In this document: positions 10,700-42,545 of the stretch, in pieces
Layout of the letters: every line of letters starts with the position of its first letter
How positions within the stretch are numbered: the first letter of the stretch is position 1
Source of the DNA: Capitulum mitella
Lineage: Eukaryota > Arthropoda > Thecostraca > Pollicipedomorpha > Pollicipedidae
Assembly (NCBI GenBank): GCA_030062745.1
Contig: CP099854.1
Coordinates: 4,439,301-4,503,300, forward strand
Length of the DNA stretch: 64,000 nt
Reading direction: 5' to 3'
Position numbers and translations under genes: made by a program
The notes under the pieces: generated by a model
Database searches by the model: none
What the model was told of the DNA's origin: nothing
What the model saw: the letters and a program-made list of their open reading frames with translations, nothing else

Positions 10700-11700
10700 C
10701 AACACGCCGACTGCACCGAGGTGTCCCTATTCCCGACACTGCTGTGATTCCAAGAAACCGGGAAAAAAACATCGACGCTACGTCCCCTTACCGTCCCACA
10801 GCTGAGAGGTCACAGTTCCAATTACCCCGCATGGAGAGACATAGATTCCATCTTCTTTCGAAGCAAATAAGCGTGGCCCAGGTCCGTCCAGTCAGCCGCA
10901 ACGGACCAGCAATCGTTGCCGACAAAATGGCGGAAAACCGCTTGTCCCCCACCGCAGTCAGGCGGGCTAGCGACGGCGACCGTGACAAGCGTCCGCTACT
11001 GCGGCCCGCGGACGGTACAGGAAAGTCCCACGTGGTGCCACGCCCCTGGCCGACCATACGTGGATCGGATCACGGCTAAAAACGGACCGACTCGAACGAG
11101 GGCCGTTTGTCGCTCGGAACAGGATCGGTCGGCGACCGCGCACGGAGTGTCTCGTGAGGACTCGTAAGAGCTTCAACAATGGGCTCACATCAGTCGGCCA
11201 CCCACTACAGCCACCGACCCCCTCTCTCATCCCCTCCCCTCCCGCTCCCCTCCAGCCACAGTCTGGAAGTCAGCGATCACGTCCCAGTCGCTGTCAGATC
11301 CGGGCTCGGCGCCGTCCCCCCTCCCTCCGCCCTCCCCCCCCCCGGCCGGACTCCAACGCCCACGCGCGGCGCCGAGTCACGACTCGGCCGTCGACTCCTC
11401 ACGCCACGGCCGGACTCGCGGCCGGCGGGTGCCCTTGGGTGACCTTGGCCGTCCCTGGTGCGGCCGCCCGCCGGAGTTCGCATCTGGAGGGAACTCCGGC
11501 GGTGAGCGAACTCCACTCGGAGTGCCGACGGCTCAGTCTAAACGCGCCGGCCCTTCCGGCGAACTCGCTGCCTGATCCTGCCGCGCGCTCAGGACGATCC
11601 TCTTTCTCACCATGCCGTCAACCAGCTCCCAGATCGGCCACGTCAGCAGTTCGTCGCCGGGCGCGGGTTCTCTGAGCGACTTAGCCTCCCCCCAACTCGC
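10700..11700. other. CpG-rich stretch, no gene recognised
   Basis: This stretch is very GC- and CpG-rich from about 10960 to 11680 and open in several frames on both strands. None of the translations matches a family I know. It lies just downstream (minus strand) of the phosphodiesterase-like exon and its donor-like array, so it would be intronic in that gene model. Confidence 0.4.
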
Positions 11701-11710
11701 GACCACCACC

Positions 11711-12112
11711 GAGAAGAAGTCCCTGGTGACCTCGCCACCCACCTCATGAAGAGGCCCTAGGTGACCTCACCACCCGCATCATAACCTAATCTGGTCAACA
11801 TGCCACCTACATCATGAAAACGTCCTAGCTGAAACCGCCACCTTATTCACGGCGATGTTCTTGTTGAGTTCGCCACCAACCTCACGAAGAAATCCGTGTC
11901 AGACTCGCCAAACACATGAACGAAGACAGACACACATGCCTCCCGAAGAAATCACTTACAGACTCACCACCTAACTCGTAAAAGAGTCATGAGCAGGCTC
12001 ACCAACTACCTCATGACATGGCCCCTGGTGTTTGGCCCACCAACCGCCCCACGACGAAGTCACTGGCGGGTTGGCCACGTACCTCATGAAGAAGTCCTTG
12101 GTGAACTCCGGG
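11711..12112 (-). repeat. Tandem array of 5' splice-site-like units
   Basis: About ten to eleven degenerate units of roughly 35 bp. Read on the minus strand, the best units contain a copy of the end of the PDE-like exon followed by a donor-like sequence, such as CTTCATGAG then GTGGGTGG at 11738-11752. The exon-proximal unit is the real exon end and donor (CTTCATGAG then GTACGTGG). Units farther from the exon are more diverged, for example ATGATGCGGGTGG and GTGAGGTTGGTGG. The array therefore seems to have grown from the exon/intron junction itself. Confidence 0.75.
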
Positions 12113-12311
12113 TGGTCGTCGAGCCAGGCCTCCACCTCGGCGGCATCGACGTCGGCCGGCAGCCGCGAGCCCGACTTCGGCCTGCGCAGGCGCGCCTCCG
12201 ACTCGGACTCGGACTCGGCCGGCGCGGCGACTCGCTCCGCGGCGGCGTCCGGCGGCGGCGAGTCGCCGCCCTGCTGCGCGGCCAGCGCCGCCAGGTCCGG
12301 GGCTCGCCATA
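12083..12311 (-). CDS. Exon of a PDE5/6/11-family phosphodiesterase, N-terminal part
   Basis: This exon would encode part of the region before the GAF domains of a cyclic-nucleotide phosphodiesterase. That enzyme class hydrolyses cGMP, and in PDE11 cAMP too, in the cytosol. The 229-bp block is bounded on the minus strand by an acceptor (CTGAC, then cccgcccctgtctcggcag) and a donor (ATGAG then GTACGT). The frame has about 75 codons: an Ala-rich start, an acidic serine run (AESESESEAR), then AAEVEAWLDDHPEFTKDFFM. VEAWLDDH matches the N-terminal motif I know from PDE5, and the HPE...M-R part resembles PDE11. The frame has no usable start codon and a stop just upstream of the acceptor, so an earlier exon is needed. 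The acceptor is phase 1 and the donor phase 2. No GAF or catalytic exon is seen in the window, so subtype is undecided. Confidence 0.62.
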
Positions 12312-12917
12312 CTGCCGAGACAGGGGCGGGGTCAGGTCATTCTGCCGAAACATGGGGCAGAGTCAGGTCATGCTATCGAGACAGGGTCAGGTTATACAGT
12401 CGAGACAGGGTGGGCGAGGTCAGGTCGTACTATCGAGACAAGGTGAGGGGAGGCGAGGTCAGGTTATACTGCCGACACAAGGGGGTAGGGTCAGATCATA
12501 CTGCCAAGACAGGGGGCAGGGTCAGGTCATACTGCCACGACAGAAGAGGGCAAGGCCAGGTCATTATGCCAAGACAGAGGGCAGAGCCAGGTCACACTGC
12601 CAAAACATAAGGCAGGGTCAGGTCGTATTGCCGAGACAGGGCAAAGTCAAGTTACACTGCCGAGACAGGGGGCAGGTTGTACTGCCGAGACAAGGAGGAC
12701 GGGATCAGGTTATACTGCCGAGAAAGGGAGATATAGCCGGGTTATGCTATCGAGATAAGGAGACACCGCGAGGTGATAATGTCGAGACAGGGAGAAAGTG
12801 TCAGGCTATACTGCCGAGATGGGGAAACGGTCAGGTTATACTGCCGAAACAACGGTCGGATTATACTATCGAGACAGGGTTAGGTTTCACTACCGAGACT
12901 GGGCAGACAGTGCCAGG
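12308..12917 (-). repeat. Tandem array of 3' splice-site-like units
   Basis: About twenty degenerate units of 24-39 bp, most near 31 bp. Read on the minus strand a typical unit is TGACCTGACC, a C-rich stretch, then CCTGTCTCGGCAGTA. That is a branch-point-like CTGAC, a pyrimidine tract and a CAG, in working order and spacing. By eye about sixteen units keep CAG or TAG at the acceptor position. The exon-proximal unit is the presumed functional acceptor of the PDE-like exon. A 348-codon plus-strand open frame across this array is a by-product of the repeat. Confidence 0.85.
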
Positions 12918-22960: not shown

Positions 22961-23170
22961 CACAGCCCGTCAGCCCGGCAGGCAGGCAGGCAGGCAGGCA
23001 GACGGACAGACAGACGGACGGACGGACGGACGGACGGACGGACGGACGGACGGACCGACCGACCGACCAACCGACCGATCGACCGACCGACCGACCGACC
23101 GAACGACCGACCGACCGACCGAACGAACGACCGACCGACCGACCGAACGACCGACCGACCGACCGACAGA
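22900..23170 (+). repeat. Compound simple repeat: CGGACAGC, GGCA, GGAC, CGAC
   Basis: Successive short tandem blocks lie side by side: an 8-bp CCGGACAG repeat at about 22905-22935, GGCA units at about 22977-23000, GGAC units to about 23053, then CGAC units with CGAA interruptions to about 23167. On the minus strand the CGAC part gives a frame of Arg-Ser-Val-Gly repeats, which is not a gene. The plus strand carries G/A/C but almost no T over 200 bp. Confidence 0.95.
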
Positions 23171-23830
23171 GATGACTGATAGCCGGACAGCGGGCACAGG
23201 ACGTAGGACAACCGGCTGTCGTGCTGACTGACGTCACAGCCAACGGCACTTCGTCGTCCTGTGTTTTGAAACCGGCACTTCTCCAGCCCGCCATGATCTT
23301 GTGACGACGCGGCGATTCCGGTTACACCCGGTGCAAAGTGGAAACGGATATTAGTCGGAAGTCTTTTTAAAGTGCGGCTTCTCAGCGCTGCCGAGAATGA
23401 ATCATGAAAGGTCAGCTTCCCAAACACACATGTTCCAGGAAGGTTTATTCCGTCGCGCTGCGACCAACTGGTGGAGTCGGGCTCCAGTGCAGCGGCGTGA
23501 AAACAAGGTGCAGGCGGCGTGATAAGCACAAACGTCCAGCCTCTGTAAATCTGCTGATTCTCCCCGACAAGCCATTTCCGGCGGCGGCGAGAGCGAGGCC
23601 GGCGAAACATTCCGAAACCAAGCCGTGTCGAACGTCGTTAAAACGCCACACCGCCGGGCCTCATTTTCGGCTCATTTCTTGTCGGGCACTTCGGCACATT
23701 TCACGGATATTATCCGTTTCAGTGAAGCTGGGCGGGGCGGGGGGAGAGAAGGAAGAGGGGGCTCTAAGGTTCGTATCGAGCTGCTTTTAAAGCCACGCCC
23801 AACCGTATGACGTCGAGCGCCGCAAACAAA

Positions 23831-24018
23831 GGCTGCAGGTCGTCTGACCAGGCTGCAGGTCGCCTGACCAGGCTGCAGGTCGCCTGACCAGGCTGCAGGT
23901 CGCCTGACCAGGCTGCAGGTCGCCTGACCAGGCTGCAGATCGTCTGACCAGGCTGCAGGTCGTCTGACCGGGCTGCAGGTCGTCTGACCGGGCTGCAGGT
24001 CGTCTGACCAGGCTGCAG
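23831..24018. repeat. 20-bp minisatellite, about nine units
   Basis: Nearly identical units of GGCTGCAGGTCGTCTGACCA with C/T and A/G variants at fixed positions. Low divergence suggests recent expansion. The minus-strand frames through it are repeat products. Confidence 0.95.
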
Positions 24019-27445: not shown

Positions 27446-27528
<83 letters not shown>

Positions 27529-27529
27529 C

Positions 27530-27564
<35 letters not shown>

Positions 27565-27588
27565 ACTTTCTATCTATCTTTCTATATG
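27445..27588 (+). repeat. TATC tetranucleotide microsatellite
   Basis: Almost pure CTAT repeat of about 28-30 units with one CTAC interruption near 27527 and a degenerate TTTC/TATA tail. Likely highly polymorphic. Confidence 0.98.
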
Positions 27589-41790: not shown

Positions 41791-42545
41791 AAACAGCCAC
41801 AGGCCGTGAGATAGATAGATGGACCCTGGGAGACCCTGGTATGATCAGAGGCCCTGGGACTTTCAGTGGTCCTGGGACTGCCAGGGATTCTGAAACGTTC
41901 AGGGCCCCCGAGACTGTCACGAGGATGAGGCAGCCGGGAACTCTTGAACAGTCAGGGGTCCTAGGACAATCAGGGGCCTGAGACGTCCATGAGCTACGCG
42001 ACGGTGAGAAGCCCTGATTCAGCCAGAAACCCTGAAGCAGCCGGAGGCCCCGGGGTGGTCAGAGCCCTGGGACGGTCCAGGGTCCGGGGATGGTCGGGAG
42101 TCCAGGAATGGTCAGGGTCTTGGGATGAGCCCTGATTCATTGAGGGGTCTGAGACGGGCAGCGGAATGGACCCTGGAATGGGCAAGGATCCTGGGACCTT
42201 AAAGGCCGGAGATGGACAGGACCCTGAAACAGCCAGGGGCCTAAGGATAATCAGGGGTCTCGGGGGAGTCATGAGTCCTGAGATAGTCAGGAGCCGTGAG
42301 GTGGTCTGATTCTCAGAAACAGCCAGTGGGCCTGGAACGGCCAGGACCTGCACACGGTCAGTGCCTCTGGGACAATCATCATCCTCGAGACAATTAGGAC
42401 CCTGCGGCTCTGGAACGGCCAGGACCTGCACACGGTCAGTGCCTCTGGGACAATCATCATCCTTGAGACAACTAGGACCCTGCGGCTCTGGGACGGTCAG
42501 GAGCCCTGGGACTCAGGAGCCCTGGGACTGTCGGAAACGCTGAGA
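41790..42545 (-). repeat. Long degenerate minisatellite with a recent 78-bp duplication
   Basis: Units of about 20-30 bp on the plus strand follow CCCTGGGACGGTCAGG. On the minus strand many read CTGGCTGTTTCAGGG, CCATTCCAGGG or CCCGTCTCAG, that is, pyrimidine tracts ending in CAG. Within it, 42339-42416 and 42417-42494 are two 78-bp copies with only about three differences, so this part expanded recently. Confidence 0.85.

Follow-up and report, generated by a model that had tools for sequence, protein, structure and literature searches.

A coding exon on the minus strand of the Capitulum mitella genome lies between two tandem arrays, each of which repeats one of the exon's own splice sites together with the sequence around it. 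The exon and both arrays are located in a window of 64,000 nucleotides, the whole stretch of DNA analyzed here, and positions given without a contig refer to this window. The features of the locus are as follows:

12083..12311, minus strand: coding exon, the first identified of a PDE5/6/11-type gene, from the PDE frame, the join to exon 2 and codon-position GC
12312..12313, minus strand: presumed functional acceptor AG in the exon-proximal unit, splice-site model score 12.7 (78th percentile of 63 acceptors modelled from the same genome)
12081..12082, minus strand: presumed functional donor GT, exon-proximal, splice-site model score 8.9 (45th percentile of 76 donors modelled from the same genome)
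12312..12917, minus strand: acceptor-side array, 20 units of about 30 bp, from wraparound parsing
11694..12082, minus strand: donor-side array, about 12 units of 35 bp, the first unit starting at 12105 in the exon, from wraparound parsing

The focal exon and its gene

Judged by its sequence, the gene is a PDE5/6/11-type phosphodiesterase, in which GAF domains are followed by a PDEase_I catalytic domain. With the other PDE exons of the genome as tblastn queries, GAF and then PDEase_I exons were found on the same strand and in the same order further along C16. A PF00233 match is also present on C16 and includes two TGA codons where it overruns the exon. The Pfam GAF search returned four places in the genome and zero on C16, and a Pfam scan of eight open reading frames of the window gave none above the curated cut-off. 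The focal exon alone matches PDE5 weakly (E 0.86 in a PDB search with the PDE frame, another row being better), so its PDE identity rests on the gene context and the join to exon 2.

Exon 2 was sought in the approximately 23 kb from the focal exon to the first GAF exon; the scan required an acceptor with the expected K-A codons behind it and an open stretch of 20 codons or more. It gave one site, C16:4438723, located 578 bases beyond position 1 of the window. Its phase-2 join to the focal donor completes an AG|G arginine codon and gives the product FFM-R-KATRQMIDAWL. The stretch across the join, VEAWLDDHPEFTKDFFM-R-KATRQM (FFM-R-KATRQM), is what we take to be a PDE family motif. Exon 2 itself (G000:C16:4438616-4438723, minus strand) sits between arrays on both sides, and its donor units carry GTCAGT.

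In the PDE frame the focal exon is TA|TGG CGA GCC ... ATG AG| and reads WRAPDLAALAAQQ...VEAWLDDHPEFTKDFFM. Its GC3-GC2 value of 0.40 resembles that of known exons, whose 10th percentile is 0.31. Upstream, the frame meets a TGA at 12339, with zero in-frame ATG codons between this stop and the exon. Splicing must therefore be the way into the exon, and the exon-proximal acceptor at 12312 is the plausible point of entry. An ATG at 12310 was considered as an initiator and ruled out, since it is not in the PDE frame. Downstream, the frame ends in a stop at 11973. Given in-frame stops on either side, PDE is encoded by the innermost splice pair only. The preliminary description took the acceptor and the donor closest to the exon to be the real ones, and the two stops together with the phase-2 join bear this out. 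The pair is thus presumed functional from frame and homology, and we infer on the same grounds that the innermost sites are the ones used in the RNA. It is very likely that the focal exon is real.

The two arrays and their decoy sites

The acceptor-side array spans 12917-12308 when the exon bases of its unit are included, and its consensus is about CCTGACCCTGCCCCTGTCTCGGCAGTATRA. Each unit consists of a branch-point-like CTGAC, a pyrimidine tract and CAG|TAT, and the AG is present in 15 of the 19 decoy units. Since the units hold only about four exon bases (TATR) in addition to the AG, this array is mostly intron-derived. The donor-side array, 12105-11694 with the exon-proximal unit counted, has the form TTCACCAAGGACTTCTTCATGAG|GTAGGTGGCGAG. 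Its units hold the last ~21 bases of the exon and the donor, i.e., both exon-edge and intron sequence, and the homologous GT is retained in 7 of 11 decoy units. The earlier count of about twenty acceptor-side units agrees with the parsing. For the donor side, the unit length of about 35 bp stands, and the count is about 12 instead of about ten. TRF, proposed earlier as a check, picks up both arrays in pieces (12308-12671, 12673-12851 and 11713-11782).

Local alignment of each exon edge against its own flank, compared with Markov-shuffled flanks, gave z values of 10.5 for the donor and 7.4 for the acceptor; among the outer donor-side copies the best reaches a score of 19, and the highest value in 100 shuffles was 11. 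The paired, junction-derived arrays reported in the preliminary description are confirmed, clearly on the donor side and less so on the acceptor side, where the units are mostly of intron origin. Relative to their consensus, the units of the two arrays diverge at ~19% and ~27% of positions. Identity to the exon-proximal unit drops with distance in the acceptor array (rho -0.57, p 0.011), and no such outward gradient is seen in the donor array (rho +0.40, p 0.23). The proposal that both arrays had grown outward from the exon therefore holds for the acceptor side and fails for the donor side.

A prospect raised earlier, that the same repeats occur widely away from exons, was looked for in the 477-Mb genome. 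The DNA search, which covered close copies, gave only self matches for both arrays. It excludes close copies only, because common words were skipped and a diverged relative on C8 was missed. At this locus (G000:C8:28929043-28929819, 5044-5820 of L005), a partial, stop-containing copy of the focal exon is found with a related donor-side array, with ~320 bp of other sequence between them. The exon is 81.6% identical to the focal one, and the array and flank are 68-71% identical. The relative thus adjoins a decayed copy of the same exon. Elsewhere in the window, four arrays with 92-96% matches were observed at 23001-23167 (GACC), 23830-24018 (20-bp unit), 27446-27585 (CTAT) and 42332-42502 (78-bp unit); no exon adjoining them was recognized from the GC pattern or the eight open reading frames.

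Many of the outer sites resemble genuine ones. Splice-site matrices were built from semi-automatically collected sites of the same genome, 76 donors and 63 acceptors. Around the focal exon, 11 outer acceptors and 5 outer donors reach at least the 5th percentile of these sites; for comparison, 400 bp of intron background contain about 2.4 acceptor-like and 1.0 donor-like sites when these thresholds are applied. By this small self-trained model, one outer acceptor and two outer donors outscore the real focal sites. Three of the five decoy donors (12002, 11967 and 11770) use a GT shifted inside the unit. Use of any decoy that passes would bring a frameshift or an in-frame stop into the PDE frame. 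At other exons the same threshold gives 7 decoys at L051, 17 at L077, 14 at GAFa2, 3 at L017 and 1 at L022, and four decoy acceptors outscore the real acceptor of the L077 exon.

Junction repeats at other exons

The survey comprised 100 entries. PDE/GAF loci supplied 33 of them, a further 30 were the best of 129 kinesin matches, and 27 were the CCT matches, out of 61, that fell in four stretches selected for their density of exons. The remaining 10 were exons of C16, chosen because of the focal exon. One entry (L032) is the same exon as C16 c1, so that the entries represent 99 exons; L044, below the Pfam cut-off, was excluded. An ungapped 30-mer scan misses diverged arrays and misplaces some junctions, and local alignment with shuffles was used instead.

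At z>4, matches of an exon edge to the adjoining flank occurred at 19 of 200 junction sides; intron-interior positions gave 12 of 188, and coding-interior sequence aligned to the same flank gave 2 of 190. Outside the focal gene, the corresponding values are 13/178, 7/166 and 2/178. Junctions are thus duplicated more often than coding sequence (p 0.006 outside the focal gene). The difference from introns is not significant, either outside the focal gene (p 0.26) or over all entries (p 0.27). Four of the 12 intron-interior positives share their array with a junction positive. When such stretches are set aside, the comparison becomes 19/200 versus 8/188 with the focal gene included (p 0.047) and 13/178 versus 6/166 outside it (p 0.16), and on these two values a modest excess at junctions may exist.

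Controls were run on the 90 entries that remain when the ten C16 rows are removed; exon c1 of the focal gene stays among them as L032. At z>5, 11 of 180 sides matched their own edge, none matched a reverse-complement query and one matched the edge of another exon. At z>4, the numbers were 14, 4 and 1 of the 180 sides.

Inspection of the alignments by eye gave 11 junction-derived sides out of 178 outside the focal gene (7 donors and 4 acceptors), distributed among the PDE, kinesin and CCT families. They fall on 11 of 89 exons, so that about one in eight of the exons sampled has its own splice site in tandem copies. These 11 sides differ from the 11 that pass z>5:

Donors: L022, L033, L051, L077_3846, L078_4120, L078_6382, L079_182
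Acceptors: L017, L071, L077_2782, L079_1877

Dropped from this curated set were L032, which belongs to the focal gene and whose array ends short of the exon, L076_3991, where the match resembles another coding stretch, and the weak L077_1448. L078_217, also weak, passed z>4 in the repeat run only. L022 had z 4.0 in the first run and fell below the cut-off in the repeat; it was retained for its alignment. L069 and L078_5072 also align across the donor and, being below z>4, were not counted.

The exon share of a unit ranges from ~6-7 nt (L071, L077_3846) to ~34 nt (the L077 CCT exon) and ~39 nt (L017). Clear acceptor-side arrays spanning the junction were found at L017 and L077. The L077 CCT exon is the most striking case, with about a dozen units of ~55 bp, most of which repeat the first ~34 bases of the exon behind a pyrimidine tract and CAG. 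The L017 array and part of the L077 array consist of nearly identical copies. Of four arrays tested, three show identity to the exon-proximal unit falling outward (focal acceptor, L051 and L077), the focal donor array being the exception. The focal gene has such repeats at further exons as well: GAFa1 has one extra copy, GAFa2 and GAFb are also affected, and inspection by eye adds exon 2 and c4.

The turnover of such arrays is illustrated by two inverted kinesin paralogs located 60 kb apart, L051 (C3:976365-976751, minus strand) and L052 (C3:1036513-1036905, plus strand). Over 391 bp, which include the junction at which L051 has an array, the two share 99.5% identity, and no array was detected at this junction in L052. 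The only further blastn matches between the two are two flanking stretches at 92-93% and matches of 28-29 bp between L051 array units and the exon end of L052, which has GC where the donor GT is expected. Comparison of the two sequences suggests that array turnover can be quick in this pair. The focal donor array is older, since the decayed exon copy on C8 bears a related array.

A separate observation concerns R&R cuticle proteins, a family that marks the genome as that of an arthropod and for which it has at least 150 matches (150 of 627 candidates scored), with clusters at G000:C9:23426933-23578197 and C10:28582373-28748071.

Origin of the arrays and choice of splice site

We propose that the arrays are near-neutral minisatellites spanning exon-intron junctions ('mirages'), tolerated because the splice sites nearest to each other across the exon are paired, and we regard this account as probable. 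When a short tandem duplication straddles a junction, one splice-site copy would stay beside the exon and a second would lie at a greater distance from it. Under exon definition, in which the two sites closest to each other across the exon are paired, the second copy would leave with the intron, and for this reason the duplication would be nearly neutral. Slippage or unequal exchange may then expand it into the intron, and the exon-proximal copy would be held by selection on the protein, as the frame supports. Since tandem duplications are abundant outside coding sequence, some exon edges would be caught, the focal exon at both ends. The higher duplication rate of junctions relative to coding sequence, together with the lack of a significant difference from introns, fits a general tandem-duplication process filtered by coding constraint. 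The earlier suggestion of a route by which minisatellites start at junctions is, in our judgment, right. Neutrality needs an effective proximity rule, because some decoys outscore the real sites at the focal exon and at L077. Nearest-across-exon pairing is reported to hold for sites flanked by large introns, and short introns to favor pairing across the intron (PMC9225289).

The decoys could themselves be functional, either by diverting transcripts to frame-broken, NMD-prone products that regulate PDE output or by buffering loss of the main sites. The focal decoys whose scores fall in the range of the modelled sites, and those above threshold at L051, L077, GAFa2, L017 and L022, would be expected in such a case. 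However, the GT/AG letters of the decoy units in six arrays are kept no better than their neighbors (109/128 versus 1900/2342, p 0.29), and selection therefore neither maintains nor removes the decoys detectably. Moreover, all passing focal decoys disrupt the PDE frame, and the close paralog L052 is without a detected array at the same junction. We consider a function of the decoys quite unlikely. On the frame and decoy-letter results, two uses envisaged in the preliminary description, splice-site buffering and a supply of alternative junctions, are not supported. It is very improbable that the arrays are ordinary intronic minisatellites merely abutting the exon. The small exon share of the focal acceptor-side units would allow it, as would the abundance of intronic arrays (70 TRF rows in the 64-kb window, overlapping rows included). 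But the alignments refute it for the donor side, whose units carry the exon end; longer exon pieces are repeated at L077 and L017, and the swapped-edge control gave 1/180. An assembly artefact might be suspected from the nearly identical copies at L017 and in part of L077, but we attach almost no weight to it, as the focal units diverge from their consensus and a decayed relative of the donor array is present on another chromosome.

A junction-specific process, for instance breakage or slippage tied to transcription or splicing, could instead seed minisatellites at splice sites. Consistent with this, both donors and acceptors are affected in three gene families, three of the four arrays tested show an outward gradient, several arrays occur in one gene, and the comparison with introns reaches p 0.047 after same-array stretches are set aside. 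However, the uncorrected comparisons give p 0.27 over all entries and p 0.26 outside the focal gene, and the nominal excess leans on a gene that was picked because of the finding. Such a process is unlikely in our view. Against the near-neutral account, the presence of arrays at both ends of the focal exon and at other junctions of its gene suggests a local hotspot or another cause.

Compared with known systems, the near-neutral mirage arrays proposed here are of a recognized type. The human IFI6 (6-16) minisatellite is a single short-unit array at one donor, which provides multiple splice donors that are reportedly used in the mRNA. It shares with the focal arrays repeat units that each hold a donor. 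Unlike IFI6, the barnacle arrays have long units, occupy both exon ends, and appear from their sequence to leave the outer units unused. The preliminary description knew of no comparable system, but the amphioxus 'mirages' are of the same kind. These are reported as tandem repeats across exon-intron boundaries in Adh3, troponin C, the globins BflGb6/BflGb9 and PGBD5, located at acceptors or donors, with many copies retaining AG/GT (PMC3087553, PMC3902484). Apparently regular splicing and allele-length differences are also described (PMC3087553, PMC3902484), and the repeats are said not to disturb regular splicing (PMC3087553). The focal arrays are like the mirages in having many copies that keep AG/GT and, clearly so on the donor side, in spanning the boundary. 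They differ in belonging to an arthropod, in flanking both exon ends, in reaching 20 units, in being known from sequence alone and in having been found by a survey of unrelated gene families. In the literature searched, by title or opening abstract and with partial coverage, we found no report of an arthropod mirage. What is new here is therefore the arthropod host, arrays at both ends of one exon, their length, and recurrence in three gene families.

The structure is real, recurrent and of a known kind. As mutation it is ordinary; its use lies in the natural experiment that it offers on splice-site choice. The selection of one splice site from several near-identical neighbors has long been a question, and engineered duplications are the usual means of studying it. 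The natural cases described here are graded in copy number, strength and age, and could be read directly by RNA-seq. They also suggest that mirages are not a peculiarity of cephalochordates. On a broader view, for and against which we find the case evenly balanced, exon junctions would be a general source of minisatellites in Capitulum mitella, and thousands of exons, by extrapolation, would face near-identical competing sites from which the spliceosome reliably takes the innermost pair. The mirage state would then be independent of that in cephalochordates and would constitute a natural large-scale experiment in exon definition.

Junction arrays also bear on gene annotation and on intron gain. 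In intron gain by tandem duplication, as in potato RdRp, the duplication is reported to make a new intron (PMC4974935). Both cases involve a tandem duplication bearing splice signals within a gene. Unlike in potato, the arrays of Capitulum mitella lengthen existing introns and leave the exon unchanged.
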